Part shown: positions 6,085 through 34,600 of the stretch, in pieces | Position numbering within the stretch: position 1 is the stretch's first letter | How the letters are laid out: every line of letters begins with the position of its first letter | From: Gracilariopsis chorda | Lineage: Eukaryota; Rhodophyta; Florideophyceae; Gracilariales; Gracilariaceae | Reading direction: 5' to 3' | DNA: 64,000 nucleotides | Assembly: GCA_003194525.1 (NCBI GenBank) | Contig: NBIV01000046.1 | Location: 310,001 to 374,000, forward strand | Position numbers and translations under genes: made by a program | The notes under the pieces: model-generated | What the model was told of the DNA's origin: nothing | The model's database searches: none | Seen by the model: only the letters and a program-made list of their open reading frames with translations

Positions 6085-8225
6085 TTAGAATCCATCAGGG
6101 AGAAAATGTTCCTTTCTGTACGCCGTTTTCAACGACGAAACTCTATTTTTCACTTGTGCGTCAGTATGGAGTTTGTTCGGCAGGGATGATTCCTGATTGA
6201 ATCTTTTCTTCAACTCTTTTACAACTGCAAGTGGAGCAATTGTGTAGTTAGAACCTTGAACTATGTTATTAACAATACTGCGATACGGTGCCATGATTCC
6301 AGGGGCTCTTACACTTCTGTTGCTACCACGCTTCTGTCTGTTGAACATAACCTGTATGTATATCTGTATATCCGACTCTGTTGGAATGTCAAACCTATCT
6401 CCTAGCCGTGACATGAGATGCTCCCTCATTACAGAAGATCCCATCTTAAACGACCTATGTTTTGACCCCCTATCGAACAGATGCTGCAATGCTTCTTTGT
6501 GTTGATCGAAAAAAGTTGAAAACGTCTCCCATTTTCTTTCCCGACAAGCCAGTCCTTCAAATTGGGGATCTATGATAGAGTTGGAAACATCAATTTCTTC
6601 CAAGATTTCATCATCTTTGACAGACATAACGCAAATCTTTTTGTACCGTATAAGTCAGTTAGGGAGGTTAACACAACGTCCCAAAACCGTTCTCGTTTCC
6701 CTCTACTGCAATCCATTTTTGCATCTCTGCAAATGCTGCATGAGTCTCCTTTCCGATGAAAATTGCCTGCAACATTTGTTGCATTCGATTCCCATTTCCC
6801 AATCATAGTCAGAATCACTATAACCGTTATCGGTACTATTGTTGTCTACCTTCAATGTTGAACAAGCCTCTGTAAAGAAGCGAGACCTTTTGGCTCTTGA
6901 CTTCGTTTTTCTGCGCCAAAGAAACTTGTTTAACGCTTGCTCTGAAAGATCTAATACTCCAGTTTCTTTTCCAAACTTTTTTGCGCTGTATGCGAATTCG
7001 ATGATACATTCCTCTCCAATTTCTGAGTTACAAAGTCCTTTCCAAGGCACAACTCTCTCAGAACTCGTAGGTAGCTTACATGCCCCATATCTACTGAATT
7101 AACAATCTCGACCAGTTCCAACTGTGGAATAACTATTGCATCGAGCGCTAACCCTTTTCCAGCTTGCGCACCACCCCAGGTATTGTTTCTCATTATTTCT
7201 TCCAATCCATGGCAATCTGTTCTTGTTCTGACCTCGACGATTATCCCAAGCGCGAGTTTTTATGTTCTCCTGATCGAATCGTATCAATTCTGCGGCTGTA
7301 TTATTCATTCCACCGCCCGCACGGAGCGCTTTGACAAGAGTTGAGGGAGTTTTTATGTCCAGTCCTTCCGCAAAAATCTTTGAAACATGCGTCATGGCAA
7401 TAGCGAAACGCGCATCAACCATGCTCTTCCCGTCCTGCCTCTTGGTCTGCATAAATCGTAAGAGTGAAAATCCGTTTGCTTTCGCAATAAACGATAAGAT
7501 TATTGGTAACGTTATGCTCTGGTAGCATGCGGCATTGTCAGAGAGAACTACAACTTCTCTCAACTTTGGCAAGTCTTCTTTAAGCCGCATCACTGCCTCG
7601 TTGAGCAGTGATGCTACTGCACTTACGTCTTTCTGAGTGTCACCCTGTACAATGTGGTCGTAAAATAACATATAGAGGTGATGTGGAGATGTATTTTCAA
7701 CGTCAGAGCCATAATCATCAGATAGATAGAATACTACCGTACAGTTCCAGCTGATTCCTTTTTTGCCGAAGAATTCAATAGTCTTCTCTTTGTAGCGCAG
7801 AGGTTCAAATTTCATTTTGTATTCCGCCAACAGAACCACACGGTGATGAAGTTTTGGCGTAACAATTTACTCAAAAACAGTCTCGAGTGCTCTTTATTGA
7901 GTGAAAAACGATGGAGGTGCGCATAGTATAAGAAGAACCTTTGTCGAATATTTCTCAGCGCACAAAGTGCATCATTCCGTGCTTCATGAATGATGCGTTT
8001 CATGGTATTTAGAAGCCCGAAAAGAGCGCGGCAGACAAGGCAATCAACGGTTCTTCTCTCGTCTAAATCGCCTTTGAGCAACAAGGCGAGTTGGTTACTG
8101 CGCAGCCTAAGCTCATCTCGATCGATATGAGAATCAAGGTATACACTCTTTAAAAAGTATCCCACACAATCAATTTGTATGTTATAGTGCTCTCTGTTCT
8201 CAACAGCCCAAAAAAGTCTTACCAT
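6085..8225 (-). mobile_element. Decayed transposase-like gene: DDE-type core plus C2H2 finger
   Basis: Five overlapping minus-strand frames (8225-7812, 7839-7099, 7205-6951, 7050-6703, 6627-6085) continue one another through frameshifts, giving one broken protein of roughly 700 residues. Its centre carries VVVLSDNAACYQ followed ~40 residues on by RQDGKSMVDARFA. That is the SDN...GK..D signature of a DDE-like domain found in many C2H2 zinc-finger proteins of animals and algae that look transposon-derived. A C2H2-like finger, CNKCCRQFSSERRLMQHLQRC, lies toward the C-terminus at about 6710-6770. The last ~180 residues (SHKHRSF... region) are basic and unrecognised. At least four frame changes make it non-functional. 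I see no terminal repeats. The family placement is from memory of the motif. Confidence 0.6.
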
Positions 8226-8734
8226 TTGAATCTAATCTGGTACAATGTCATTGACGTAGCATCCAAAGACGTAGTCATTAGATGATTTCCTTTTGCGAAC
8301 CCGTGCTGTTAGCGTACAGCAAACATTCAAAACTGTAGAACGTCCTACACATGCCAATTCCTTTTGATTACAAGTTCTTATATAGTCTCTGTACATTACA
8401 CATTTTTTTTCTTTTTCCTTGGTACAGCAGGCAGTATGTGATTTCTCTCCCCAGTTTGAATTCTCTTTGTACCCCTGGAAAGTAACTGTATATTCGGCCT
8501 GGAAAATATAAAGCGAGCCAAAGTGTTACCCTGCTCCCCAGAACATCAAGAAAGGTTTCGTGAGTAGGTTTTGAGTTGTCCGTTTAGAATCAAGTAGTCT
8601 CAATCTAGTTTTGATGTCATGTATACACGTTTTGAAATTGCTTCACATCCCTCGCATTCCAAGATTTCAATTTCATCATCTAGGTGAAAGCAGTTGCTCA
8701 AAAACCGGTTTACATCATGTCACTTCATTGAAGC

Positions 8735-9137
8735 TCAAAGTACATTTCGAATAACTCTCCGTTCAATGGAACCACGAATTGTTGTGTTAAGAGCAGCACT
8801 TCTGTCGTTTGTAAAAACTGAAAAAGGACGGGTTTGACGAGTCCAATTTCGAGATGTAGGAAATGTACTAGCATCAGCTGGATATAATAGTTCGCATAAA
8901 CCAGAAAAAAAGTTGACGCAGTACGTAATCCAATGGGGTAACATCTGCACTGGAGTTAGAATGAATAGAAGTAGTGTTGCGCGAGGCTGGTAGATTGTCA
9001 GCATGATGTTTGAGAGAAAAATATTGGAGTATATCAGAAAGGTGTGCTTTGATTTGATTTGAATATATGAGATCAGCACTTTCACTGGATGTTTCTTCAT
9101 ATGGTTTTCTCTTCAGATCTCTTCGAGGTTTTTCCAT
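8735..9137 (-). pseudogene. Short broken reading frame upstream of the DDE/C2H2 element
   Basis: A frame starting with the ATG at 9137 (MEKPRRDLKRKPYEE...) stops at 8874. A second frame that overlaps it runs on to 8735 and looks like its continuation across a run of seven T's near 8905-8915 (read on the minus strand). It has the same orientation as the broken transposase downstream and could be its N-terminal part. No domain is recognised, and 8226-8734 between them holds nothing I can name. Confidence 0.25.
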
Positions 9138-10059
9138 CTTGTGTGAGAGATAGATGGTTTCTCAAGAAAACTCTAGGTTGGAAGAAAATTTGTTTGTGGT
9201 CTTTCCTTCGAGTGTGATACAACTTGTACAGGTGGTTTTCTGTACATGCTGTCTTCTATGTACGATTGCTTACAACATGAAAGTTGCACAAAGTCTTATT
9301 TTTGATTAAATTTATCGATGCTCAGCTTAGTCTTCAGTTTCATATTTTCATATGTCTTATAAAAAGTGATCTGTACCTTATTTGCTTTTTGAAAGGTTTT
9401 AAACTTAGACGAATACAGAATCACTTTAGAAAGATTTTAAGCTTTTGAATGATATCAAAATTTTTGAAAATGGACTATAATTGCGAGTTCGTACTTTTGA
9501 TAAGTTCTCACAACAAATTTACGGTGGCTGACAAACTGCGTACTAATACTTTGTAATCATTTTCAACCAAATTTACAGAAGAAATAAGCATACAGAAGCA
9601 AGCAGCGCAAGATCGCGACGTAAAAATGCGTTACTCTCTTCATTAATTTCTTGACTCTTTACACTTTCCCTTATACATGTGACACTCCTGTGTGTTCCGG
9701 TGTCTTCTTTTCTACTTTTCGCTGTCTCGCAGCCACCCTCACGGAATTAGACCGCAACCTCGTATACATGTCGTGACGATGATTCTTCGTTTACGCCAGG
9801 CAGGCGCACCCGCTCATGAAGTGCTTTGTCCTCTGTTGCTACTCTTCATAGAAGATCATCCCCAACTTTTTCGTTTTCTTTTCCCTTTGCAGGATACTGC
9901 AACAAAAACTGCACCCTGGAACTAGAAGTGTGTCAGAGGATTCAGGTTTTTTGGATCGTTTTGCGTTTGTACGAATCTTCTTTTTACTGTTGGCTATGCC
10001 GGTTTGTTTTGGGACTTATCTCGCGGGAAACCAAAGCTTTCTGCTGAAGAGGTCAGCAA
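9138..10059. other. A/T-rich intergenic, no gene seen
   Basis: The stretch is A/T-rich with scattered short plus-strand frames at 9692-10047 that show no domain. It may include the 5' part of the copia remnant that begins near 10060, but no LTR was found. Confidence 0.35.
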
Positions 10060-13557: not shown

Positions 13558-13610
13558 CTAGTGTCTATCGGACCGCTGACCTCATATGAGGTCAAAACAA
13601 TCAACTTTAC
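13558..13610 (+). repeat. Dispersed repeat with a 16-bp perfect palindrome, copy 1
   Basis: It starts with CTAGTGTCTATCGGACC and carries the perfect palindrome GACCTCATATGAGGTC at 13578-13593. A clearly related copy in the opposite orientation lies at 41445-41497, and a partial copy of the left half at 37071-37090. Confidence 0.6.
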
Positions 13611-14204
13611 GTTTAATTTTAGTTATTTTGATCGGATTTTTTTGCCTTTTGTATTCTGTATAAGTTATGCAACATGTTTTTGTATAGCAAAAATTCTAAG
13701 CTTCTGTTGTTTATGCTAGGTAAAAAGCCGAAACATAAGACAACCAGATGGTTTGATAGAGATGAGCTTGTAAAATATGACTAATTTACTACAGAGCTTC
13801 AAAAAACCGGCTTTTTTGATATCAAAAACGTACTTTTGATTCAAAAACACCGTTTTTGACGCGTGTATGAAAGGTTCAAAACCTTCAAAAAATAATCATT
13901 TGGCAACATTACATCCGGGCGGATAGACACTAGGCAGAACGCTTAGATTGCTTCTCTACTATAATCTTGAAAGCCCTTTTGGAGCATGCTGGATGTGTAG
14001 AGGAGCCATTGTTGCACCACATGTAACAACGGCAGAATAGGATCTTTCTAGAGAACTTTGGGAATGAACTTCAGTATCTTCTAGGAATTTGTGCGCTCTT
14101 CTATTACCTTCCTGATTCAGCATAGTTATCATGCCATTAACTGAAACGAGTTAGTTTGCTTTTCATAACTACGTAGACGAGTTCGGGCTTTTGACAAATA
14201 CCAC

Positions 14205-14976: not shown

Positions 14977-15229
14977 TTCCACACTAGACGGATTTCGAGA
15001 TAGCTCCGCCACTGCCTCATATCAGGCGTCCTCGTTCCGTTGGTAACTTTTGTTTTTATTTTGCAATCCAGCTTCATGATTCATTTTTATTTTCTCTTCC
15101 ACCGGCCGAGCTCAACCAGATTTGTGGAAGTCGAGCCGTTCCCAAGATACAGGCCAATCTTTTCGTTGCCATCGTCACCACCACCAGTTCTACCTCCTCG
15201 ACTACTCCTGCGAGCAACAGTATTTCCAG

Positions 15230-16978
15230 ATGGCGACATCCGAACAGCCTGACATTAACCTTACATGTGCTACCGCCCAAGATGTAATGGCCAGTGACCT
15301 CAGCACTCCACTTGATGACCTGCTTTCGGGACTTCTGAGTCCTGCAGATAGTTTGCCACCGCTTCACGAAGATTTCTTATCTTCGTTCATCTCTGATGAA
15401 CCATGGGACACTACCGACCCTCCCTTAGCACTTCGCCGCACCCCTACACCGCCGCTATCGCTCTGTGAGCACAGTACCTGCCACTTTGAATCCTGGCAAG
15501 ACGTTGTTACGTCGTTTGCCCGCTTGTACCAGACAGAACGCGTGCGAGTTGTTCGTGCTATGTTATTTGCTACCACGGCCCCACAGGGCAAGCACAATTT
15601 CTTAAGCGCATCCTCCGCCAGTGGTTGGAGGCGAGAAGCGAAGCGAAGGCGCGTCAATGATACAAAGAAGGAACGTTCGCACGTTGTGTACGCAATCAAA
15701 GGCAACGTTTTGTGCCGCTCTGCGTTAGCCTCGTTAATTTCCCTACAGGACCAGACCATACAGCGTCACGCAAATCGGGTGGTGAACGGGTCCGAGCGGT
15801 TGTACTATGACCCACAAAGAAATCTAAGCCGAAAAGATAAACATGGTATTCAGCGTCTCATTCTTAGGGGCTTCCTAGCTTGGTATGGCAGTTATTTTGG
15901 GCTGGAGAGTCCGCGTGGCCGGGGAACGCGAGACGACGAGCCTCTGCGATTATTAACGTCCTCAACCACCAAAGTCAATGTGCACGAGTCTTATGTTGAG
16001 TCGTGGCCTTCTCTTGCAGGAGCTGTCGAAGGTCTGATAAATTCCGCAAATCTACCCGCTGCCCCTCCGTCTTACTCGCTCTTTCTTCGGTATTGGGATA
16101 AGGACGCCCCAACTCTTCGCATAACGAAGAGTGGAAGCGACTTCTGTGACTTCAGTACAACGATGAAGGGTAACATTGCATGTTTAGAAGGCGGAGAGGA
16201 ACAGCTACAGATTCTAAGAGATGTGTTGGAGCAACACAGAAAAGAAGCAAAGGAAGAGTTTTTGTTTTACAAAGAATGCCAACGTCAAGCTCATGAGGAC
16301 CCTAACGGGGGAACGCAGCATTTTGTTTTCGACTTTGCCGAAAAAGTGCTCCTACCAAAGCTTTTAAAGCAGCCAGGACAGCTTCATTTCGTAACTGGTT
16401 TGAAGTTTGACATTTTTGGAGTTTCGTCGAGTAATGAAGAAAAGAAATACGTGTTTGGGCTCCCAGAGGGTCACTGGCCGAATGAAAAGACCGCCAACGT
16501 GGTTATATCAATGCTACACCACGTGTTAGAAACTCAAAAGGCTACCAACGCCCCGGGCGCTTTTGCACGCCACCTAAAGCTTCACGTGGATAACTGTGCC
16601 GGGCAGAATAAGAACAGATTTGCGCTTTGGTATTTATGTTGGAGAGTACTCATGGAGCTGAATGATAGCATCCAGTTGTGCTTCCTTATTGCAGGCCACA
16701 CAAAGAACGTCTGCAATGGTGTCTTCGGTCATGTCAAGCGCCGTTTCAATCAGACTAATACCCACACGCCTTCTGATATGATGACTTTTATAGAGAACAG
16801 TAGCTTTACAACCAATTTTGTGCCCAGTGTACACGTGGACTGGAAGGATTGGAAGTCTATGCTGTCTTCACAGTTCAGCATACCTAGTGGACTTGCCATA
16901 ACTAAGTTTCATGTTTTCACATTCCGCAAAGATTCTTTGGGATATGTCTCTTGTCGTCACCTCAGGGTCGTTCTATGA
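15230..16978 (+). CDS. Intact DUF7869-type protein (transposase-like nuclease fold)
   Basis: This is an unbroken frame of 582 codons from the ATG at 15230. The frame is open 36 codons further upstream, but the internal ATG starts a more normal acidic N-terminus (MATSEQPD...). Residues ~100-240 are basic and mixed. Residues ~440-520 carry the signature of a family common in oomycetes, algae and fungi and named, as I recall, DUF7869: HVDNCAGQNKNRFALWYL near residue 453, then FLIAGHTKNVCNGVFGHVKR near 489. Conserved D, N, H and D/N residues suggest an RNase H-like metal-dependent core of transposase type. Unlike every transposase relative elsewhere in this window it has no stop or frameshift, so it is either a young mobile gene or under selection. 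A near-perfect hairpin lies ~80 bp past its stop. Confidence 0.7.
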   Translation: MATSEQPDINLTCATAQDVMASDLSTPLDDLLSGLLSPADSLPPLHEDFLSSFISDEPWDTTDPPLALRRTPTPPLSLCEHSTCHFESWQDVVTSFARLYQTERVRVVRAMLFATTAPQGKHNFLSASSASGWRREAKRRRVNDTKKERSHVVYAIKGNVLCRSALASLISLQDQTIQRHANRVVNGSERLYYDPQRNLSRKDKHGIQRLILRGFLAWYGSYFGLESPRGRGTRDDEPLRLLTSSTTKVNVHESYVESWPSLAGAVEGLINSANLPAAPPSYSLFLRYWDKDAPTLRITKSGSDFCDFSTTMKGNIACLEGGEEQLQILRDVLEQHRKEAKEEFLFYKECQRQAHEDPNGGTQHFVFDFAEKVLLPKLLKQPGQLHFVTGLKFDIFGVSSSNEEKKYVFGLPEGHWPNEKTANVVISMLHHVLETQKATNAPGAFARHLKLHVDNCAGQNKNRFALWYLCWRVLMELNDSIQLCFLIAGHTKNVCNGVFGHVKRRFNQTNTHTPSDMMTFIENSSFTTNFVPSVHVDWKDWKSMLSSQFSIPSGLAITKFHVFTFRKDSLGYVSCRHLRVVL

Positions 16979-17057
16979 GTTTCTAAATGAAACGAAACGA
17001 AACTGGAAAACCATTCTCGAGCAATCAGGCATTTACACGTTGCCTCCAAACGCTTCA

Positions 17058-17112
17058 AGATTTCGTTTAATGTAGGGAGCACGATTGTTGCTTCCTACAT
17101 TAAACGAAATCT
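17058..17112. repeat. 24-bp inverted repeat with 7-nt loop
   Basis: Arms 17058-17081 and 17089-17112 are complementary at 23 of 24 positions. The loop is cgattgt. It lies 80-134 bp past the stop of the DUF7869-type gene and ~150 bp before the next gene. It could be a 3' RNA hairpin, a small foldback element or a transposon end. Confidence 0.85.
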
Positions 17113-17260
17113 GAACGTTGAAAGAATACACTTCACAGTTGCATTCAGTCAAAAACAAGCTTCCACCCGACAAGTCCAAATGACAAACCTAGAATTGCGT
17201 GGTTTCAATAACTATAATCTCTTTCTTGCCGCACTTTGTGAATGACGAACAACCGCTAGT

Positions 17261-18556
17261 ATGAACATGACAGACTCTGATCCGCAGCCATCAAGTACGC
17301 ATGAAGTTGGAGCCCGTACTCAGCCACCTCCAAAAACGCTCCATGAAGCTTGTAATCAACTTGATGCTTACACATTTCGCAACTCACAATGTAAGAAAGC
17401 GTTGAAGGTGCTCAAAGTTAGCGGAGCCATTAACGCAAAGATAGATACAAAGCGCAAAATTATATCCATGAAAATGGTACAGCGGAAAATAAGCGCATCG
17501 CATCTTGTTCAGGTAATGCAAAACGTAGTACCCAGCTCTAACAATGTTTCTACTCACATCCAAGACTTACCACATACGATAGTTCGTATAAATAAATGTG
17601 AATCTGGGAGAGAGCAGATCGATTTCATTCAAGGAGATGCACCGCAACTGATCGGAGATAAAGTATTCGTAGGAAAACCATCACTACAATCTTTTTACAA
17701 CAACTCGTCTCCCAACGAAAGTCGAAACCCGGCTTTTGAAGCCGCAGAGTATTGTAGACTGCTTCATGTCTTTGCGGACCCACGTATGACTGCAGCAAGA
17801 ATCAAACTAATGGAATGCTTAACCAGAGAGGAGCTTGATCGACAGAATGAAGATCCATGGAGTGAACAAATTGCGCCGTTATTTAATGACATTTCCTTCA
17901 AACCTGCTGCAAACACAACTCTTTCCGGAGGTATCACATCCGACGATATATGTATGCTCAATCCTGCTGAGCGTCCTTATATTCGTGAAGGTGGTGTGTT
18001 AAAGAGAAAGTTTGCAGAATTCAAAAGCGTATACGGTCAGTGCTTAGCAAAATTTGAGGCGTCGGGGCAAGGAGATCCAGAAGCGTTCTCTAGGTTTGCC
18101 TACGGCAAAGCATACATTATGTACGGGTACTGCTTTATGCAGCTACACCCTATTTTGAAACCATTTGTTACCCGTGCATTGGAGAGTGATGCTCAACGGG
18201 AGGAAGGGGTGGGGTATGGGGTCAACCCATACGGGTCTGGAGGAAATGAGTTTTTCCGTGACCAACAGAAGAGACTAAAGCGAGATGTGCATGATGTTAA
18301 TTTTGTTGGTTTAGATGAGCTGGTATCGGCCTTAAAGCAGCAGCGAAATGTCCCAGCTCAATTAGAACAACTGAAAAAGCGACGGCTACAGTTTGAAGTC
18401 ATGGACGCACAAGTTCGCTCTACTACGTCTGCGCTGGAAGCGATAGTGCGCGTGAAGGATATGTTGGAGCAAGGCGTTAGTGCGGAAGAAAAGGATTTGT
18501 TTGAAGGAGTTCTAAACAACCTCAAAGCATCTCTTGAGTCAGAAAGAGCTGCATAG
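17261..18556 (+). CDS. 431-aa orphan protein
   Basis: This is an intact frame from the ATG at 17261 to the TAG at 18556. I recognise no named domain. Visible features are a charged, helical C-terminal third (residues ~350-431) with likely coiled coil (LKQQRNVPAQLEQLKKRRLQ), and a central GGVLKRKFAEFKSVYGQCL segment followed by SGQGDPEAFSRFAYGKAY. That last pattern (basic helix, then FxxFxxGxxYxxY) reminds me of unnamed proteins that accompany transposons in algae and oomycetes. The gene lies 280 bp after the DUF7869-type gene on the same strand and 48 bp before the dead SRCAP gene. Given this context it may be the second protein of a mobile unit, but that is inference. Confidence 0.6.
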   Translation: MNMTDSDPQPSSTHEVGARTQPPPKTLHEACNQLDAYTFRNSQCKKALKVLKVSGAINAKIDTKRKIISMKMVQRKISASHLVQVMQNVVPSSNNVSTHIQDLPHTIVRINKCESGREQIDFIQGDAPQLIGDKVFVGKPSLQSFYNNSSPNESRNPAFEAAEYCRLLHVFADPRMTAARIKLMECLTREELDRQNEDPWSEQIAPLFNDISFKPAANTTLSGGITSDDICMLNPAERPYIREGGVLKRKFAEFKSVYGQCLAKFEASGQGDPEAFSRFAYGKAYIMYGYCFMQLHPILKPFVTRALESDAQREEGVGYGVNPYGSGGNEFFRDQQKRLKRDVHDVNFVGLDELVSALKQQRNVPAQLEQLKKRRLQFEVMDAQVRSTTSALEAIVRVKDMLEQGVSAEEKDLFEGVLNNLKASLESERAA

Positions 18557-18603
18557 TAGCATAACCTCTGCAGGAAGTGGCGAATTCTATGTAATGCAAA
18601 GTA

Positions 18604-21600
18604 ATGGGCACGGCTTGTTCAAAATGTTCTCTGCAAAGATCCGAAGTCCATTATATTATTGAAGAAGCAGTACGGTTGGCTACCGATTTCATCGGAGAGC
18701 GCAAGTGGAAAATGCAAATGGCGAGAAAGATTGCAAAGATGTTTGTACAGTACCACAATCAGCGGAGACGTCGTCAAGCTACAGCTCAAGTAGAAGAATT
18801 GCAACGAATTCGAAAACTTGCAACTTCTATGGCAAAGGATGTCTCGAAGTTTTGGAGGCAAATTGGGGAGATTGTTGATTACAGAGCCGCTTTAAAGACT
18901 AAAGCCCAGCAGAACAAGGAAAGGCGATCTAAACTCAAGGACCTTTTTGAGAAAACAGAAGCGCTCTCATCAGAGCTTGCATCTACGCTCCGAGTCCCTC
19001 CTTCAGCTAATCATCATAACGACGCCTGCAATGTGGTAAAGCATGTATGCTTTGGTGACGGAAGCGTTGAGAGCCATGCCCGGGATAGGGCAGAAGGTGC
19101 TCTTCTTCCAGAAGGTAGTCCTGATGAGAATAGTTTACGAGAACTGTCTACAACCATTGTCCGCGTCACAGGCTATGTTCCGAGTCCTGGCAACAGCAAA
19201 CAAGAGGATTGTGACTCTGATTTTTCGATTCCTGCCAGTAACTCTGCCGAAGAGCACACTGATGGCTTCGATGATGAAACCACTATGGCCATTGCAGAAG
19301 CAGAAGAAGAAAGGGATCCAAATGAATTGCGTGCATTACAAACTCAGGCTGATTTGCCACTATAGGACTTACTTCGTTCTCTGTTTATTGATCTGCAGAA
19401 GTATTTTTCGGAAAAGAACTCAAACACAGCGTTGGAGAAAGACGTCGACGATTCAGACGTGAGTGAGCCTACATCCTGGGATGAAGTTGTTGACGATGAA
19501 GAGACAATAAGAGCTGCGGAGGCTGAAGACGTGCCGGATGTAAATGAGGGTCAAAGGCTGGCCGACGAGGCAGCAGCCAGCATTGAAGAGATTTTGAGAG
19601 CCCAAGGAATAGACCCTGATGTGTATAGAACAGATCAGACGGTATACTTGAAACCACAGAGTGGATCAAAAGTTTCCACTCTATCTACGGATGCGAACAA
19701 TGATCCGAAATCCACACTTCTCTCTCCGGTAGAGAATGGGGTTAAGGAAGATGATGCAGGAATTGCAATGGTTCAGCAAAGGTGTAACATGCCATCTGTA
19801 AATATTGAACATGTAATCAAAGACCGTAACACGAATGCTGCCACGGTAGAGAAGTACTCTTCAATGAATGGACAGTCTTCAAAGATTACCGAAGAGGATC
19901 GTACGCATCCTTCCAGAGAATCGCCATGTTTGTCCGAACCACAAACTAATGGCAACTCTAACCATTCACCATCTGGTCAGGGAAAAGGACAGGTCGAGGA
20001 ATCCTCAAGAGCTGTCGAGAACGGTAAAGCACTTCCTGTTCATGTCGTTCGAAAGTATGTTTCGAGTACTCATTTACAAAGTACGCTATTTCGTGGAAAC
20101 CATCGAGATTACCAAAGAAGAGGTTTGAAATGGCTACTGACGCTTTGGCGCAAAAACCTCAATGGAATACTAGCGGATGACATGGGACTTGGAAAGACCA
20201 TTCAGACTATTGATCTCTTGGCATGGTTGGCTCTTGAGAAAGGGGTGTGGGGTCTACACCTCATTGTTGTTCCGACCTCAGTTATGGTGAACTGAGAAGT
20301 AGAATTCAAGAAATGGCTGCCAGGATTCAAGGTTTTGACGTATTTTGGCTCTGTCAAGGAACGAAAAGCGAAACGCCGCGTTTGGACAAGGCCTGATATG
20401 TTCCATGTGTTTATCACTTCCTACACCCTGGCAGTGCAAGATTCCATTATATTACGTCGGAAGAAGTGGTACTACTTTATCTTGGATGAGGCCCATAACA
20501 TCAAGAACTTTGAATCTCAGAGGTGGCAAACACTACTAACCTTCTCATCGAGACATCTTCTGTTGCTAACAGGTACTCCTCTGCAAAATTCTGTTATGGA
20601 GCTTTGGTCTTCAATGCATTTCTTGATGCCCAAACTGTTCGAAAGCCATTCATGGTTCAAGGATACTTTTTTGGAAGCCTCTTCTTGAAGCCACAGAAGC
20701 AGAAAAAGACCTGAACCATGGTAAGTCTGAAACAGTCTGCACTCTACACGGCATTCTTCGCTCTTTCTTGCTTCGTCGGTTGAAGAAAGATGTTGAGAAA
20801 GGGCTACCGCCCAAGTAAGAACACATAATACAGTATTATGTCGTCTGAGCAAACGGCAACGGCAGCTTTATGAAGATTTCATGGCTCGAGGTGACACACG
20901 AGAAACATTGAAGTCAAAAGATATGCTTGGAGTTATGAATGTTCTGCTTCAGCTACGAAAAGTCTGTAACCACCCTGACCTTTTCGAAGGGCGTCCAATT
21001 TTATCGCCATTTTCTAGTAATTCCATTTTCTTACCCGTGCCTATGATAGTGGCACGAGCGATTCAAGATGAACCAAGACATTATGTAACACTGCATCTTA
21101 TGGGTTTAGATTTTCAGTACGGGGAGCACAACTCGCCTGGCAAATGGTATGAAAACGAACTGGAACGTCTATCGGCCGTAAAGGTAATGCGAGACGGAAT
21201 GGATAGTCCTAAGTGTTTAGGATCTCTGCATGAGTCCCAAGAGAGCTTGGACTTTCGAACAGGTAGTCAACGTGCCCAACATCGAAGAACCGCATCTCGC
21301 TATGCTACTCTGCACCACCAAGTTTTGGTACATGCACTAAGGATCAGACAACGGGCGCTTCTAGGACAGGATTTACGTGGTATATATTCGATGACGGTTT
21401 CGTCCTTGTTTCATGTGCTTCAGAAAGATTTCCCTTCAGGTTTTTTGTGGGATACCCCTCGACCTTCATTGGTTCGTTCCATCGAACAGGTAGTGGAACA
21501 GGCTAAACCAATAGCTAATCGTTTTGTGTGCTGCATTACCAAAGTAATCGCGCCCACTGTTCAGCTTCGTTTCTATGGGGATGATATGTCACGTTTTCGT

Positions 21601-24600
21601 GAGCGAGACAGTTTTCGAGAGCTCACCCGGGCGTCATCGGGACTACGTGCTCTTTTTCGTGAATTTGAAGTTCGTAGTCAGGTGACGATTCCAGACACTA
21701 GACTTGTGCAATGGGACTGTGGTAAGCTACAAACTCTAGATCACTTGTTACGTGAGCTTAAGGTTCGGAAGTCGCGTGCGTTGATCTTCACACAGATGAC
21801 GAGAATGCTTGACATTCTGGAATCATTTCTGAATCTCCATTGCTTTCGATACCTTCGTTTGGATGGTACAACAAAGACTGACGAAAGACAAAGAGTGGTG
21901 GAACGGTTTAACGCTGATTCAAGAATTCTCTCTATGATACTAACCACTCGTGCAGGAGGCGTTGGGATTAACTTAACTGGTGCCGACACGGTGATTTTCT
22001 ATGACTCTGATTACAAACCTGCGATTAATAATCATGCCCAAGACCGTGCGCATCGTATTGGGCAAACGAAGCCTGTGCATGTGTACCGCCTGATTTCGGA
22101 ACAAACTGTAGAGGAAAACGTTCTGAAATGGGCAATGGGGAAGCGTTCACTGGAGCAGCAAATAATTTCACATGCTGGTTCACCACGGATGGAATTCAGA
22201 GATATCGAGATTCCTCCAAAATGGTAAAGTCTCCACAGAATACCTGAGAAAGCCAGACCTCACTTCCTGCTGTTCATAATGAAAGACTTGGAGCTCCCAA
22301 GAACGGAATACGAAGCAGCTCACTGACTCCGAAATCTATACTACTGCAGGACCTAGCAGAAAACGGTAGGAGCCGACCAGTTTCTTCAGAATCATTGCAG
22401 AGTGCCGAGAGTACTGGTGTCCAATGCTCCTACGGGGAGTTTACAGGATTCAGAGCAGCAAATAAGAGCGAAATGGAGAATGGTATGGCAAAGGCAAGCA
22501 GTGAGGCAGTGATTCAGGACGTTGGGGATGGCTCTGATGAGTACCAAGAATTAACCTCCAAGCTTCTAGCCAGGGAAGATGAGCGTGAAGAACTAGCCCT
22601 CAAAGCTGCCGAGAAAGAAAAACATGACCTAGAAGCTGAGTTTGAGGACACCCCGGAAGATCATCATATTGATGCGACGAGGGCCGACAACAAAAGCAGT
22701 CGAACTAATGAGCTTGCGAAGGTCATGAACTCTCTAACCCGTATTCAGAGATACGAACTTCGTGTTTTTGAACGTATGAGTGGGGCAGAATCTCTTCCTG
22801 AGCCCTCGCATTGCAACAACATTGGTGCAAATTGGGCTACTCCTGGATTCGATTCTGTACTTGGAGAGTGCTCTCGTCCAGATGATGCAAATGATTCTGA
22901 AATCGAGAGCACTGGAGAAGATGATACGGAGACTCTGCTGTATGAAGTGGATATTACTGATGATGGACATGCAAGCTATGTAAAAGCGCTGACGAACGCC
23001 GACGCGGACATTGATATGTACCTGTCGCTACGCGACGGTGGTCCGGAAGAGCTTCACTTTTCGTCGGTAGTACATGGCACCGCAGCGGCTGGTTTAGAAT
23101 GTGCGGAAGATGCAGCTTTCTTCCCGCACCCTTACAACAGAATGAGCCGGACAATGCATGCAACGAGAAGGCAGAAAGAGAAGGGTCTTGAGAACCTGCG
23201 GAAGGGGAAGGCTGAAATTGAGAGAAGACGCAAGTTGGAAACAGCATGTTCTGCTCCTAACCAAACGAGCAGCCGCGCTGCATTTTCTGTGGACTCCTAC
23301 AGGGATGAGCAGCTTAAGGGATCAGGTGCCACGGATCGTGCAAGGACAACAAAAGGAAAACCCGAGCTACTATCCATCTCAATCCAATCTGCTTCGAAGA
23401 AGAGCAGAGCAGATTCTTCTTCTAGGTCGAAGACCGCAATGAGTGTAGCTAGTGCAGGTTCAGGATCTGATACACATCATTCGAGTATGTGTCTATTCAA
23501 GAACAAGCCAAAGAAGAACACGAAACGGTTTACGATTCCTGGAATTAAGTCTTCAATTGCGAACTATGGAAGCAGCATATCTAACGAACCTAACAGAGTA
23601 AACGATGGCTGGACCAAGGAGGAGGATGAGGCCTTGATCGATGCTGCCTCTGCGTGTAACAACAATATGTTTCTCGTGGCTGACCTTCTGTCTTCGGATC
23701 CACTCGTATGAATGGGAGTTCGTCGACTCAGGCCAGTCCGGCATTGTGTAGATAGGCTTCTCAATGATTTTGGAAAGGATATCAAGAGCGTTCGACCGGT
23801 TCCGAAGGCAATTATAAGCGATCGGGAAATTGTGCAGAAGTATCATTCCGCGTTTCAACGTGCCGTCAGTGCTTTAAGTACAAAGGCTGTGTCAAATAGC
23901 GGACAGACGGGACTTGAGTTGCATTCATCCCAACAGAAGTTAATGTCTGAAGCGACATCAAAGATGAAGGGGATGGTGAGGCCAGAGCTTTTGCCACCCC
24001 TGACCGCAGTTCTTAAGTGCTTCAATATTCCTGAGCACCATAAGCCCAGAATGAAAACGACCGAAACAGGGCCTCAGGCTGTTTACAAGCGTCGACGGCC
24101 TTTCATGTTTCCTCCTAGAGATAATATCTGACTCTTAACGCGTACAGGTGGGCTTTCAACCGCTGTTGGTGCTTCTTATCAAGATCAACCAGCAATAAAG
24201 AGTGGAGACCCAAATCGCTTCCAAAAGGGGCCAGGCAGAGGAGCTCGCAACATGAATCTTGGAGCATCGTCGCGTCGTAACGGTCAGATTCGCAATGCTG
24301 CCGGCTCTCGAGGTTCTACACCGAAGATGAAGACAGTTGATTTGAAAACGGAGAATCAGTCGACTTCCCATCGTCCCCAAGAGGCTAGAAATGTTCTGCC
24401 GCCTCATAGCATATCTCGCAGGGAATCCAACCCTTCAACTATAAAGTCTTCTGGTTACAAACATGTGAACCTGGGAAATAGTGGACAAAGTGTTTCAGTG
24501 TCAAAAAAAGGAAGATGGCCAAAGCCAGATAGGATCCGTCAACCACGCTGTTTTGATGACTCGTGTAGCTACCTCAGCTGTGCAGAATGCAGCGAAGTAT

Positions 24601-24951
24601 TCTCGTTCTACAGCTGATCTTCCCAAGTCCTGGGGAATGCCTCCATCTAACGCGGGGAGCACATTGAAGGCAACTTCTGGAAAGATTGCCGGATCTCAAG
24701 GCGTCGTACAGTCAATGGTCACCACCTCCATGCTCCAGAACGGAGATGCGCGGGTTTATTATTTGGGGACTCCCGCGCTCTTGACTGGTTCACAATTCCG
24801 TATAGGACAAGTATTAAACTACGGAGGAGGTGACCACAATTCTAAAGCTCTCTATTCTTCGTATGTGTCATCATCACTTCAACCTGGGAACGGCAGCGGT
24901 AATCCACTGGCGCGTTGTCGGGGAACTGCCAGCACAGCGGAGCCCCAGTAG
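18604..24951 (+). pseudogene. SRCAP/SWR1/PIE1-type Snf2 chromatin remodeller, broken
   Basis: All landmarks of a SWR1-class ATPase occur in order. An HSA domain is at ~18640-18900 (LATDFIGERKWKMQMARK). Two acidic DDE.TI repeats lie at ~19270-19530. Snf2 ATPase motifs follow: ADDMGLGKTIQTI near 20172, DEAH at 20485-20496, LLTGTPLQNSVMELWS near 20564. LRKVCNHPDLFEGRPILSPF near 20956 marks SRCAP/SWR1 with its long insertion. C-terminal helicase motifs (TTRAGGVGINL, QDRAHRIGQTK) lie at ~21940-22070, and a SANT-like domain at ~23610-23770. In-frame stops at 19363 (TAG), 20293 (TGA, where Trp is expected), 20816 (TAA, where Tyr is expected), 22245, 23709 and 24129 (TGA), plus frame changes near 20672, 20838, 22218 and 24545, break it. 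Only ~20 residues precede the HSA, so the N-terminus is also short. A coding-like tail may extend to ~25315. Confidence 0.88.
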
Positions 24952-25085
24952 GTCCCAGTGCCGGCACAGGCAGGACTAATCAGGGATTAGATGGTTCATG
25001 AAAAGGAAACGATAGCATGACAGTGAATCGTGGTACCGTGTGCATGGCACGAGAGGCATTAGAGCTGGGAATGCTGCAACGATCA

Positions 25086-25152
25086 GAGGTGCGTCAAGAG
25101 GCGCATCTAGATGCCCATCAAGAGGGGCGTCAAGGGTCGCATCAAGAGGAGT
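25086..25152 (+). repeat. ~12-nt degenerate tandem repeat (RGAS-like)
   Basis: About six units of the type cgtcaagaggcg or catcaagagggg run head to tail. On the plus strand they encode repeated Arg-Gly-Ala-Ser, which would suit the disordered tail of the broken SRCAP-like protein. On the minus strand they read as repeated Pro-Leu-Asp-Ala. Confidence 0.6.
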
Positions 25153-25298
25153 AGCTTGAGTTACCATTTCGAACCCGGCTAGCACGGGTATAGCTATCGG
25201 AAGAGCTGTTGGTTTAGGACGTGGCAATGTGGCGTCCCGGTCAGATACAGGTGCAGAACTCGTTAGAACTCGAAGAGGAGGTTTACTAGAACGTCTTT

Positions 25299-26623
25299 TC
25301 ATATAAAACTTCGTCTTTGCAGGTATCCTAGCCTATGAAGCTTTTCTGCAAGTTCATTGCGCCGCGACGACGTTTCTCTTCGCCTGTTCCTTGACCGTCT
25401 GTTTTCGCCTTCTGTGTGACAGTCATCCTGAAAGTGTATGATAGGCGTACCAGTCACACGATTATCATCATGATGCGGTACGAGTTCAAACACGGAGCTG
25501 TCTCCATTATCAATAATGAAGTTGTGGAGTTTGCACGTGACCATAATGATAAGTGTAGAAGTTGGCAACGAGTAACGAAGAGCTGACCAAAAGATGCCAA
25601 ATCGGCATACAAGCATCCCGAACGCCTGCTCGCAACAAACTCTGGATAAAGAATGATACGCGTTGAAAGAATCTTCTTTTGTACTTAGATTTCGTCCTGG
25701 ATACGGCGTTAGAATTCTCTGCTCGTTTGTATACGCTTCATCAGCAACAACAGCTGCCCACGATGGTAGCTGTGCACCACTTAACAAATCGTACAATAAA
25801 GTTGCCTAAAAGCTGTAGAATCATGCGTTCCACCCGCATGTCGCGCCGAAACGAAGCAGAATTTGTAGTCTGCTTGAACTGCTGCCTGCACACAGATTGC
25901 AAAAAACCATTTGCGATTGTAGTACTTACGAGGATCTGACGCTTCTCGAAGCTTAGGCCGAATAATTTCGATCGCGATACCATCCAAGGCTGCCACTACA
26001 CCATCAAGTGGACTTCGGCGACGTTTCTCGAACATATCCGCGCTTGCAAAACACTCTTCAAAAGAGATCGGAAATCGAATTTGTGGAAGGACTTCATTTA
26101 GAACGTGAAGAGTTTCATGAAACACATGATATACGGTAGACTCAGCAACACCATATGCCCACCCCAGGTCTAGAAAGCTTGCACCTGCTAAGAGCCGTAA
26201 AGTTAAACATAGCATAACAGGTACGGATACAGAAGCAGCAATATAGCTCCGCTTTCTTTGCATTCTCAAGAGTTTTACTGAGAGAAGTTTGGAAAGGATA
26301 TTAAACTGCTCTTTTGAGAGACGGTACATTCGGCGAAAGAATTGAGTAGAAAGAGTAGCCATATGAGCTTCAAAGTTGAATTGTGGTCTCGGAACAACAG
26401 GGCTTTTGAAATGTAAAGGTGAACATAGGTCCGCTGCAATGGTGAGAAGAATAATACAAATAACGGTAAGCACGCTTTCGTTTTGTGTAGTTGATGAGTC
26501 TACGAACAAACTCATTGCTCTGGAAGGATCTTTCTTGGTTAATAGAGCGCGATGTCTTGGTCTGTGACGTTGCTTTCGAATTCGCGGATATTGGCGTTGC
26601 GTTCCCCTTTCTAACGTTGGCAT
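25299..26623 (-). mobile_element. PIF/Harbinger transposase (DDE_Tnp_4) with one frameshift
   Basis: Two minus-strand frames, 26623-25781 and 25796-25299, make one transposase of roughly 440 residues. The first holds a helix-turn-helix-like stretch (GWAYGVAESTVYHVF), the first catalytic Asp in VVAALDGIAIEI, and the second in HAGGTHDSTAFRQ. The second frame holds VVADEAYTNEQRILTPY, the SFNAYHSLSRVCCEQAFGML segment with the catalytic Glu, and CKLHNFIID. The tail is Arg-rich. The frames overlap near 25785, and a single-base shift joins them in the usual order, so this copy is nearly intact and probably young. Terminal repeats and a TTA target duplication were not found by eye. It lies at the 3' end of the broken SRCAP-like gene, facing it. 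Confidence 0.85.
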
Positions 26624-28607
26624 GGTGCAAGGGTGGCCGTAAGCGTACTGAATTGTCTCTGGGAGGGTATGGGGCTCGCGTTAAGGAAAAACTCATAGAA
26701 TGAAGCCTTGGCTGAAAGCTTGAAGTTGACCGCGTAACACGTTTACATCCGTTAAAATCTAGAAACTCATAGAACGGCCCTCAGTACGGAGGAAACATCG
26801 GAAAGCTTTGCACTAACTAGCATGGAAACGTCGGAATCATTCCGTAGAGAATGGGCAACACGCATGAGGCAGGAGGACTTTAAAAGTTTAATAGTTCTAC
26901 TTGAGGACGTTGCTTCTGCTAATCATAAAAAAAGGAAGCGGTACCTCGAGGTCAACATCCTCGACCGCTACTACGCAAATGACCGCCACATGAGGCAGAA
27001 CTTTTTCAGTAGTGGTGTAGAGCATGAGAATCAATAAGTGAGGCGTGCAGAGGCTCCTCGAGATGGAATTTGAGCGTACATCGGCAGCCTCAGAGCGTTT
27101 TGGACGTATCTCCGCAACAGGCTCGAGTTAGCCGGAGTGCTTTATCTTGTTGGAAAAAGCTCAAACAGCCCTCCAACTTCGGTTTTGAGCACAAAAGGCC
27201 AATTTCTGGATGTTTTGGCCTATATCTCAAAACTGAAAAATTACTTCTAAGGTACTCTTGATTTTGAAGTTCTCCCATATGCAGATGTATTTACACTCAT
27301 TCTTTCAGGCACTGGCGAATTGAGAAGTATTTCATGTAATATTTACAACAATGTTTGTCGTCTTGATATTTTGAAGCTTTTTTTTTTTCAAACCTCCGAA
27401 AGTTGTCGCTCAACATCTGAAAGCCAGTGCCGATTAAATTCACATTAATACTAGCTTTGGTGCCTACTATCAACCCAATCCAAGGCACACTGGCTGATCA
27501 ACGGCTCGCCACTGCTTTCAAATTAGACAACACACTTGCTAGCGTAAACAGAAGCATATGGCAGATGGTCGATGAATTCAATGTCACATATCAGATTCGC
27601 TGCTCTGTTGTATCCCACGCAGAGGAAATTTAATGCATATCACGGAATGGACTTCTGGTAGTACTTTTGATCATGGTGAAAGGTTGTGCTTACAAGACTA
27701 ATGGCCACCTGGAAGCGCAGACTTCACTTACGTTCGGTCAATCTTCGGCATCGCAAATACGGTACGAATGCAGTTGTTACGACTATTAATGGCTTGAATT
27801 GAGAGTCCATTATTAACCATTGTTAACACCGTAGCTTTCAGATGCCTTAAAGCATTTGCTCGCAACTTTTATGCAAGAATCAATCGAACTTGGTGGTATA
27901 AATGTGGACGATTAAGGTGACAGAAAACCCGCCTTTTCCCATCATCTCCTCTAGCTGCTTCATGGAAGACGGCCCATTCTCATAATGCGCCTTTAGAATG
28001 TGGCGTTCATTTTGCCTCAAAATCTCGATAGATTTCCTTAGCACACCAAACCTCAGAAAGGATCGTGGGATCACCTGTCAGTTTCTTTGTCTACGCAAGC
28101 CTATCAAAGTTGAACTTGAAGCTTCCTGATGAAGGTCTGGGTCGTTCGTTCAGCGTACCCCATTTGGTTATGTACCTGAGACAACTGAGCCCAGTAATGT
28201 TGGACGAGTGGTTCATGGTTTGCCAAAAGGTCGAGAACCTTTAAAGCACCACTAGGGCTGTATTCTGGTTTAAAAGGTTCTAAATGTGGTAAGTTGGCAC
28301 TGTTATCAGTTTGTTTCATAAAATTGGTTAGTTGTCGAACGTTTTCACGGTATTTTAAAAGACTGTGAAGCAATGGATACCATACGAAGATGCAGTAGGC
28401 TTGAATTGAGTACGAAAGAAGGGAAAGCGAAAGTGCGAGAGCGAAACTCTAAGCAATTGAATTGCAAAATGGTTGTGCAGTTTCTGCAAATGCATGGCCA
28501 CCTTCATCATGGAAAACAATGTGAACCGTCTGATTTGATCTTGTTTCACTGTAGAGACAAGGCTTCCCCCTTATGTGTCCTTTTCTGTAGATTTTTGAAT
28601 GGTCTTA
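26624..28607. other. Intergenic debris between Harbinger and the LTR element
   Basis: There is no clear gene. A 71-codon frame at 26822-27037 (plus) has a charged, helical sequence without a domain. Minus-strand frames at 28549-28355, 28373-28104 and 28074-27880 seem to continue one another and could be a decayed gene of ~180 residues (GALKVLDLLANHEPLVQHYW), which I do not recognise. The right copy of the 35-bp inverted repeat is at 27248-27282. Confidence 0.35.
27248..27282 (-). repeat. 35-bp repeat, right copy of an inverted pair
   Basis: 27248-27269 is the exact reverse complement of 14955-14976, and the next 13 bases match with a few differences. See the left copy at 14942. Confidence 0.65.
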
Positions 28608-31600: not shown

Positions 31601-34600
31601 ATTGGACAGGGTCTTGATGATCTGGCATAACCCCAAAGTGCTCATGATGACTTGGCACGGATCTCTCGGGAACCTTCTATGACCGTTGGATCATTGCTGT
31701 ACCACGTGAAGTGTTTGTCAACTTTGTAAGTAGTAGGCAACGTTTATTTCGGAACCAACTTTGTCCACGTAGTCGTTCGGGGCTTTTCTGAGATAAGCAT
31801 GTAGTCGTGTCATATTGACAGTATGTCACAAAATACGTCAACTCGGCTTTGAGACCAGGTAGAAATGTCAAATAGGTAACTGAAGTGCAACGTCCTCAGG
31901 GAGGGATTCCTGGTACTTGATCGTTTTCCCCATATTATCGGTTGTGTAGTGTTTATATGAACTACGCCCCACAATGGTGGGTATAGACACGTGGGACATG
32001 GTTTTGGGTCAGTTGGCGGTTGGCCACAGTAGTGGATGTTGCCACGAAATGTGGAGTATTCTAGTTGATTTTATTTATTATTTTCACACCCATTTATGGG
32101 AAGCTAGTACTTAGTGCGACGGCGCCCTGCCGTCGCACGAGTAAACCTTCCCCAACAAGGGACCCCAACCTGGGGATTTGGCTCTAGTTGTTACCGCTTG
32201 CGCGCGTGCTCTACTCCTCCTTGGAGGGAAACGCCGTAAACCACGGGCCATCTAACCCCCTTGCACATCTAAAGAGGCCCATCCTTGGGAGTATAATTGT
32301 TCCAATCAAATTGGTGTTTTGCCCTGTATAGGGAGTCCTGTCCACCGGCATTGCCGTATTCGTTCGTCGCTCTCGCGACGCACCCTCGCCCACTCTTCGT
32401 CCTTTCCCTTCACTCTCCTCCTTTCCCCCTTTCAGGGTAGTACATCCCACTACCCGCGGCCCCTCCTGTGTGCACCCGCTCACACTTCCCCACTTACGTG
32501 GAAACACACATCTACTGAGGATCACACCCCGCTCACGCAGATACTGATTCTTCGCCTTCACCTCCCTGCGCAAGTCGCGACAGGTGTCCCTGGTCTTACA
32601 AACCAGCTTCGCCGTGACACCTCTGGGAGGGCTCTACCCGACTGGGTTCACCTCGTGAGAGGAAGATCCCGGACGTGTTTCGGTGTTTTTCCCCTTTGTG
32701 GCATTGCACCACAGTAACCGATCTCTTCAGGAGATCGAGTACAATAAAAGTAAGAAAAGTAGACACTTTACATCTGATGCTGGAGCCAAGTATACTCAAA
32801 CAAAGCTAAAATTGTAACTAAATCTAACAGGGAAGTACCGAGGTGCGCATGGTGTAGGAAGTTGTACTTGAATATGGTATCTCTGGCTGCATCTTCGCAA
32901 TATTGATCTCCTAGTTGGGCTTTGTTCAGTAACGCTCTGAATGACTTTCGGCTATAGAGTTTTCTTGTGGCTAGTGGGGCCTTCTTAGATGACTGCGCCC
33001 TTCGTCCTTTCGTTATATTTCTTGCCTCGCGTATGAAGTGTATTTTTTCGCTATACAACTTCTAAAGTCCGTTAGAGGGTGTTTTATATGAATTCTGATG
33101 TGGTCTAGACTGTCGTTTACGTGTTGCAGTATTTGCTTGGGAACTCGTACGTGTAGTGCAACGCGCTCGTGGAGGTTTATCTTATAATGTGACTCATACA
33201 AATGCGGATTTACCGCATCGCGGCGAAACCGTTCGATATATGAATCGGAGGTCAGTTACTTGACGCCGAGGTTACTGGCACATTTTCATGGCCATTAGTT
33301 TACTTGCCACTTTGGGACACTTACCACACGTGTCGTGGTGTTTGCTCCTATTATTTAGAAATAGCTATATTCTATTTAGCTAATAAAATATAGCTGCCTG
33401 AAGGTGGATCGGCACCGCCTATACTTCGGTAGGCAACCGTGCCCCCACTGCGGGGAAGTAAACAAAACATCAGAGTGTTCGGCTCTGACTCAGGCACCCC
33501 TGGTGCTTGGAAAACTCCGTCGGAGAGCCAACGTGTGGTGCTGGACTAGTTACTCCACCTTGTAGTATCTCCAACCGCATTCCGCGTCGCTGTATCATCC
33601 GCTCCACGTGTTCCATTATCTCGTCTATATTATCACTGATACAGGCCGCACCCCCATGCTGGCCTGTTATTACTTATTTCTTTCTCGCTTGTCTCGCGCT
33701 TCCTTCGTGGTTATACCGTACACCTGCACGCCCGTCGTGACAGTGAGCCTCGGACATACACCCGGCTAACGCGCCCACCGCAGGTGGCTCTGTTTACTGT
33801 TGCTACCCTTTACAGAGGACGATCCGAATGCCTTCGCGTATCTTTCCCTCCGCGGGGTACTGTACCACATTAAGAAGTATGCTAACGTGAAGTGGCTGTG
33901 TGAGCAGATGAACAATTGCATGTGATTGTTCCCATAGGTGGATGTGGGCTTAATGGGGCCGCATATATCGGAGCGGACATAGGCTTCTGTGGGATAGTTG
34001 TGTACGATACGTCTGTGAGGAGAGGGGCGGAGTTTGGTGTGCGAGCAGTTGCTGCAGGTGAGAATGGTATCTGCTAGTAGTGACTGTACCATGCGTGGGA
34101 TTAGTCAATGAGCTGTTGCTAGTGAGAGTTTGGATGGATGTGAATGACTTAGGCGGACGAGCTAATCTTGTATTATGGTTTGTATGTTGGTTGTGCCACG
34201 CAGATGATGAGAATTCCTTGGGATGTGAAGTAATCGGAGGCCTGTGGGGCCTTCGGAACTCAATGTGACAGGTGGCTCAGGGTGCCTGTGACTGTGAGTT
34301 TTAGGGAAAGGGCTGGATTTGGGTGTGCGATAGGAGGCAGCTTTGTGTTGGTTACTCGTTTTATTCGGTATGGTTCGTGCCATGAGTGCTCGTTTACGTT
34401 CTACGGTGATCCCAAATAATGCGTATTGGTTTCCCGTACATGCAGACTGGGGTAATATGTGTGGTGTTTGTTGTGATTTTTGAGGATAGAGCCAGATTTT
34501 GATGTGAATGGCACTAAGCCGTTGGTTTTGGCGAGATCAAGTACTGAGAGAAGGCTGTGCATTAGGAGATAATCAAGACGAGCATACGTTTAGGCAGTGT

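Follow-up and report, generated by a model that had tools for sequence, protein, structure and literature searches.

A broken SWR1/SRCAP-type gene of Gracilariopsis chorda as very probable cargo of a PIF/Harbinger-type transposon

Introduction

Among the closest described systems is the grapevine PIF family Pifvine-3 which, in the portions of its description available to us, combines a transposase, a second open reading frame (ORF) and host exons and introns, its long 5′ region measuring at most 3.5 kb (Benjak et al., 2008, PMC2528002). Pack-MULEs are mostly 1–2 kb in size and, in the part of the source consulted, transposition efficacy is said to fall once the cargo exceeds 6 kb (PMC6431247), while a review, as far as its accessible text goes, leaves room for a route of gene capture still to be discovered (PMC13317346). 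Here we consider a stretch of 64,000 nucleotides from the red alga Gracilariopsis chorda (positions 310001–374000 of contig C46, NBIV01000046.1), called the window below, in which a long and much broken gene of the SWR1/SRCAP type lies between the ends of a mobile element. We are highly confident that this gene is the transduplicated cargo of a cut-and-paste transposon of the PIF/Harbinger type. Unless a contig is named, coordinates are those of the window.

The element and its ends

The genome that we searched amounts to 91.3 Mb in 1,081 contigs; a weak match to a phycobilisome domain (28.1 bits against a cut-off of 22.2) and a PAP_fibrillin gene are in keeping with a photosynthetic eukaryote and perhaps with a red alga. 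Matches from other contigs start at window positions 16940–16966 (mostly 16961–16966) and stop at 26779–26787, which delimits an element with the following features, where TIR stands for terminal inverted repeat and TSD for target-site duplication.

16965..26780, + strand: whole PIF/Harbinger-type element, 9,816 bp (other-contig matches start and stop here; TIRs, TSD, empty sites)
16962..16964, no strand: left TSD, TCA (TCA flanks both ends)
26781..26783, no strand: right TSD, TCA
16965..16988, + strand: left TIR, starts GGGTCGTTCTATGAGTTTCTAAAT (same end seen in other copies)
26757..26780, − strand: right TIR (from the inverted-repeat listing)
17058..17112, no strand: subterminal hairpin with arms of 24 nt, 96% complementary (other copies show palindromic matches)
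17246..18556, + strand: ORF2, second protein of the element, open over 436 amino acids, first ATG at 17261 (ORF translation; genome relatives)
25299..26680, − strand: transposase, HARBI1-like DDE_Tnp_4 (PF13359), frame-broken, convergent with ORF2, 5′ end approximate
15080..16964, + strand: DUF7869 repeat ORF (PF25273; the ORF as such spans 15080–16978), host of the insertion, outside the element (intact relatives on C161 and C163)

The TIR pair is the longest inverted repeat listed in 16900–26900, with arms of 28 nt (TSD included) that are 89% complementary. Both ends are covered in five copies, those of the window, C352, C8, C139 and C121, the other copies showing one end or none; identical 3-bp TSDs flank four of the five (TCA in the window and in C352, TAA in C8, TTA in C139), and C121 has no matching duplication. 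Two empty sites, L053 on C161 and L054 on C163, read ..CGCCTCAGTA.. with a single TCA, and the DUF7869 repeat, cut by the element in the window, is continuous on both contigs. The TIRs of PIF/Harbinger elements are short and begin with G; the arms of the window element are of this kind, and its 3-bp TSD has the length expected of the superfamily, in which the TSD is mostly TWA.

The transposase is of the HARBI1-like DDE_Tnp_4 kind that characterizes PIF/Harbinger transposons. Pfam recognizes PF13359 in the window piece 25781–26680 (E 9e-8) and, much more strongly, in the copy on C352, where the frame is open over 429 amino acids (E 4e-23); a match to HTH_Tnp_4 falls below the cut-off. ORF2 is open in the window copy while the transposase is frame-broken there, and no domain was found in ORF2 by sequence in Pfam, NCBIfam or the PDB. 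Taken together, transposase, TIRs and TSD fit an element of the PIF/Harbinger type.

The cargo and its intact donor

What had been noticed from the letters alone was a SWR1/SRCAP-type gene with stops and shifts at 18604–24951, for which a second, intact copy was expected to exist. The genome search finds it: an intact gene at C223:124693-117092(−), 2,534 amino acids from stop to stop, with its first Met at residue 8 and no intron needed. Its neighbours are a gamma-tubulin-complex gene on one side and an eIF-6 gene on the other, it has no transposon arms, and it is the only one among the close genome matches to have a frame through both cargo query pieces. By sequence, the solved proteins nearest to this frame are human SRCAP (E 2e-219) and yeast Swr1 (3e-192), p400 and INO80 coming after them; the domains of the frame are HSA (158–225), SNF2 (655–943) and Helicase_C (1191–1303). 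The mark of the SWR1/SRCAP class is an HSA domain together with an ATPase that has a long insert; both cargo and donor belong to this class, being nearest to SRCAP/Swr1 among the solved SNF2 proteins. The match between cargo and donor, one contiguous stretch of 6.6 kb at 96%, is far beyond chance. It spans query positions 251–6881 of 7,201 (window 18650–25280), while C24, C352 and C294 match the entire 7.2-kb query at 94–99%.

18650..25280, + strand: captured SWR1/SRCAP-type block, about donor residues 168–2376 of 2,534 (96% to C223:124191-117568(−), arms unmatched there)
18646..18819, + strand: HSA domain, start cut by the capture junction (PF07529, P0004 residues 18–75)
20110..20982, + strand: SNF2 ATPase N-lobe, interrupted by frameshifts and by two stops, 20293 and 20816 (PF00176 in P0001 and P0002)
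21724..22062, + strand: Helicase C-terminal lobe (PF00271 in P0002, residues 310–422)
23610..23790, + strand: Myb/SANT-like stretch (WTKEEDEAL..), stop 23709 inside, end approximate (weak donor PF13921)
19363..19365, + strand: stop, donor Glu406 GAG>TAG, common to C24 and C8
20293..20295, + strand: stop, donor Trp716 TGG>TGA, common to C24, C352 and C8, also seen in C155
20816..20818, + strand: stop, donor Ser890 TCA>TAA, common to C24, C352 and C8
22245..22247, + strand: stop, donor Gly1365 GGA>TGA, common to C24 and C352
23709..23711, + strand: stop, donor Arg1853 CGA>TGA, window copy only
24129..24131, + strand: stop, donor Arg1993 CGA>TGA, common to C24, C352, C8 and C139

Pfam finds HSA, SNF2-rel_dom and Helicase_C in separate pieces, and the order of the domains is real; the PF13921 match at donor residues 1820–1881 is weak (E 0.0048, below the cut-off). 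The sequence-only reading had placed its six in-frame stops correctly (19363 TAG, 20293 TGA, 20816 TAA, 22245 TGA, 23709 TGA and 24129 TGA), and it was right that one of them replaces a near-invariant Trp, TGG having become TGA at residue 716. The stop in 'PK-stop-EH', which it took for a lost Tyr, stands in place of Ser. The frame changes that it put at about four are real, but their number is too low: set against the donor, the cargo holds six frame-changing indels and eight in-register stops (residues 406, 716, 890, 1365, 1853, 1993, 2283 and 2335), in part because the homology extends to 25280. The window copy holds no open reading frame for a working SWR1 remodeller.

Copies, shared lesions and selection

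The element with its SWR1 cargo is present at 12 other loci (C24, C352, C294, C8, C121, C146, C195, C49, C340, C139, C302 and C155), in some of them interrupted or truncated, and an extra fragment of the cargo lies at C223:18862-20086. A single alignment spans the left capture junction in 11 of these 12 copies and the right one in seven of the nine copies with data; C155 is the exception at both junctions, and C340 extends just 9 bases beyond the right one. The copies of the window, C24, C352 and C8 share the stops at residues Trp716, Ser890, Arg1993 and Arg2335 and the frameshifts at 2117, 2261 and 2296, the last two (about 2261 and 2296) being also common to C294 and C121. As these lesions are common to other copies, the cargo gene had already died when the window copy jumped.

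Between copies, the ratio of nonsynonymous to synonymous divergence (dN/dS) of the cargo lies between 0.74 and 1.99 for the pairs that were counted, with a pooled value of 1.10 over four non-overlapping pairs. The pooled ratio is 0.82 for ORF2 (four non-overlapping pairs) and 0.85 for the transposase (three pairs), several deep pairs giving about 0.5–0.7 for either gene; for the window and C146, the values are 0.99 for the cargo, 0.60 for ORF2 and 0.58 for the transposase. As a separate observation, several copies have diverged from the window a little less at about 20.6–21.0 kb of the cargo than on either side of it.

We may propose a scenario for the origin of such an element. In an ancestral element, a segment of host DNA would have come to lie between two convergent stop codons, probably through faulty repair of the gap made by the transposase or through fusion of neighbouring insertions, a position that would have left mobility intact. 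The capture would have omitted the first residues of the gene and the start of its HSA domain, and the cargo, without lasting selection, would have multiplied as dead freight. Related elements would have taken other host DNA into the same place, making it a repeatedly used cargo slot.

A proposed slot between convergent genes

Relatives of ORF2 number at least 98 matches (at least 91 loci after merging of fragments) and those of the transposase at least 131 matches (at least 125 loci), all such counts being lower bounds because only part of the candidates was scored (96 of 218 in the ORF2 search, 131 of 298 in the transposase search). At least 68 convergent pairs of the two genes lie within 25 kb of one another (63 within 12 kb), as against five same-strand neighbours within 12 kb. 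The gaps within these pairs measure about 0.5 kb in four cases, 1.0–2.9 kb in 16, 3.5–8.7 kb in 43 and more than 12 kb in five that may be interrupted, a measure which is about 0.5 kb too large because the transposase query ends before the end of the gene. In L061, one of the pairs with a gap of about 0.5 kb, direct reading places the stop codons of ORF2 and transposase 8 bp apart.

The gap on C258 (L060) holds a piece of a protein kinase and a piece of a DUF676 esterase. Five other places match this gap over its whole length; for C11:431184-436169, the match covers query 531–5512 only. The similarity of sister elements to L060 extends as far as about 530 (C171, C240, C8) and resumes at about 5507–5549 (C8, C96, C240, C95, C44); since the middle has no counterpart in them, the insert sits in the same slot. 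The middle of a gap on C41 (L063) consists of a piece of a class I tRNA synthetase, which we read as of the valyl type under a Pfam label that covers I, L, M and V, and of a glyoxalase-type gene; C108 matches query 1–1331 only and C140 query 1320–2801 only. A 601-base sample of a third gap, on C208 (L064), recurs at seven other loci; its short ORFs stay under every Pfam cut-off and no certain donor was seen for it. Counting the SWR1 block, three types of cargo, one of them a chimera of two loci, occupy the same place between convergent genes, and related elements appear to have captured other genes there. The position of the slot may only reflect that cargo placed elsewhere would break a gene and that the pairs were found by means of those very genes. 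It is conceivable, and we advance it as a tentative idea, that a lineage of PIF/Harbinger elements with two genes possesses a modular slot between convergent stops, where host blocks of several kb were captured repeatedly and passed between diverged backbones while the genes for transposition remained outside, the elements acting as carriers in gene shuffling and not as sporadic accidents of the Pack type.

A distant transposase lineage, 35–36% identical to that of the window, was met at five loci 3,609–3,618 bp from a match to a SNF2-type helicase in the same orientation (C318:19033-24046, C82:160233-165228, C10:91253-96248, C236:69453-74481 and C171:123966-128969), possibly another Harbinger-type family with a SNF2-like gene of its own.

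Alternative explanations

That an intact gene exists, and that the window copy is 96% identical to it, is what one would expect of an ordinary duplicate of the SWR1 gene, segmental or tandem, that died recently, and the idea of a recently dead duplicate was right in that the copy is dead. Yet the copy is one of at least 13 dispersed, transposon-borne copies, mostly with the same junctions and with lesions in common, most of the stops being older than the last transpositions; its ends are TIRs and a 3-bp TSD, and two empty sites are at hand. We consider a simple duplicate very unlikely. An error of assembly or base calling in a living gene, which had also been envisaged, deserves even less credence: four contigs each hold a copy with the same four stops and three frameshifts, amid different flanking DNA, the copies differ from each other at a dN/dS of about 1, and the intact gene is assembled elsewhere. 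A processed (retro-) pseudogene fallen by chance into a transposon would be hard to recognize by intron loss, the donor being a single intronless open frame. The block, however, has its start within the HSA domain, its end lies about 158 residues ahead of the donor stop, and the kinase/DUF676 cargo matches a contiguous 5-kb stretch of C11 with pieces of more than one gene, and this origin seems to us most improbable.

A slightly less unlikely alternative would be that the gene is recoded or edited, or that the cargo was kept for a function in the transposon, for example in opening chromatin. Nearly the whole of an ATPase gene is carried, the region at about 20.6–21.0 kb has diverged less in several of the copies, donor–copy dN/dS in the ATPase lobes goes down to 0.41, and chromatin genes recur in transposons (SET in HarbingerS, TET/JBP in PHISTA, histone H3 in a hAT element; PMC12730594 and PMC6710886, in the parts consulted). 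Against this, the dN/dS between copies is about 1, the youngest copies share stops and frameshifts, and other elements hold unrelated cargo; editing or recoding of the transcript, also suggested beforehand, is made unlikely by the same ratio and by the many breaks of the frame. We regard a kept or recoded gene as very improbable, if slightly less so than the other explanations, and continue with transduplicated cargo as the preferred account.

Several observations sit uneasily with this account. PIF/Harbinger elements usually have a Myb/SANT domain in their second protein; it was sought in ORF2 by sequence and not found. For the transposon genes, the pooled ratio is just under 1 (Fisher p: ORF2 0.050, transposase 0.17), several young pairs give values near or above 1 for these genes, and the cargo itself is below 1 in some pairs (0.81 for window–C340, 0.74 for window–C155), so that the contrast between cargo and transposon genes, in the expected direction, is modest. 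The comparison with the intact copy, proposed at the outset, gives a donor–copy dN/dS of 0.66–1.01, with 0.41–0.5 in parts of the ATPase lobes of some copies, where changes are few; such low values fit a constrained donor, a brief constraint on the cargo being also possible. For the other cargo types, the stretches of C11 (kinase/DUF676) and of C108 and C140 (a tRNA-synthetase/glyoxalase chimera) are candidate donors, judged so from the absence of arms, no match to ORF2 or transposase lying near them among the matches listed.

The clock raises a further difficulty. The synonymous distance between donor and copy is 0.04 for C24 and the window, 0.14 for C195 and 0.29 for C155, though most copies share both junctions, and a simple single capture misfits distances spread from 0.04 to 0.29. 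Transitions at CpG are raised in most copies (contexts were counted as CG, CHG and CHH only), but transversions climb in parallel, hence methylation-like decay alone is not the cause of the unequal distances. In C340 and C302, the left arm is more diverged than the cargo, with a change-point at most 25 bp from the junction (likelihood ratios 22.9 and 18.0) in a scan of divergence from the window that covered the left of the element as far as 21000. The same scan places the change-point of C146 at 19583 (likelihood ratio 26.7, against 13.4 at the junction), gives 7.7 at the junction for C49 and detects no step at the junction in C195 and C139. Arms and cargo thus diverge alike in C195 and C139, and not in C340, C302 and C146, which may reflect either differences of rate between lineages or exchange of cargo between backbones; a second uptake of donor sequence, or gene conversion by the donor, was also considered. 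In C155 (L051, about 645–720), the arm ends at window position 18648 and joins donor residue 517 via a microhomology of the GATCCGAA type at the edge of the slot, and DNA to which no origin was assigned precedes the right arm; an internal deletion is the simpler explanation, an independent second and older capture the other. In a tree built without C302 and without the fragment on C223, the donor takes a position intermediate between the group of the window and the older copies (bootstrap 85); nothing further was drawn from this tree.

Other repeats in the window

Three further repeats were seen. One of about 376 bp (about 13558–13933) has at least 20 copies elsewhere in the genome at 96–99%, another of about 833 bp (about 31881–32713) has more than 30 copies at 90–95%, and the repeat at 8000–9545 is related at 81–86% to sequences on C61, C173, C10 and C13.

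Comparison with known systems

A DNA transposon of 9.8 kb that holds most of a gene of about 2,500 residues has consequences for the study of genomes and for that of capture itself. Counts and copy numbers of chromatin-regulator genes in such genomes can mislead unless transposon cargo is removed, and the mechanism of capture becomes testable by comparing junctions among related elements. In the literature that we searched, by titles and the beginnings of abstracts with few subscription papers covered, we found no case of Harbinger elements or gene capture in red algae, nor of a transduplicated SNF2 gene.

The comparisons that follow rest on the parts of each source that could be consulted. 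Pack-TYPE elements, including the maize Pack-PIF (Gisby and Catoni, 2022, PMC8903248), share with the window element host coding DNA transduplicated within TIRs, the TSDs and the PIF superfamily, and the window element does have host gene DNA between its TIRs. They are, however, defined as non-autonomous, and the PIF example (cluster 18) has 163 + 58 bp of gene DNA. The transposase of the window copy is frame-broken, yet the family carries genes for both transposase and ORF2, and C352 keeps an open transposase frame of 429 amino acids; because the family retains both, we do not file the element as Pack-TYPE. The fungal hAT element with histone H3 (PMC6710886) is likewise a DNA transposon; it measures about 9.5 kb and has amplified a captured chromatin gene, with one intact original and many dead copies; its cargo is a transcript-derived coding region of 411 bp, decayed by repeat-induced point mutation, in contrast to the 6.6-kb block in a PIF/Harbinger element. 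HarbingerS (SET) and PHISTA (TET/JBP) are transposons of the Harbinger superfamily with a chromatin-modifier gene, but there the element is described as itself encoding that gene (PMC12730594), whereas here it is broken in all copies examined and the cargo varies by subfamily.

A close likeness is that of Pifvine-3, with its transposase, second ORF and host DNA, in some cases shared among copies, and its TSDs mostly TAA or TTA. Its extra DNA lies in the 5′ region, whereas the Gracilariopsis cargo lies between convergent genes, reaches 6.6 kb and comprises most of a very long gene. As far as the consulted text of these works goes, gene capture by a transposase-bearing PIF element is already known from grapevine, and what stands out in the present variant is the size of the cargo and the apparently reused slot.

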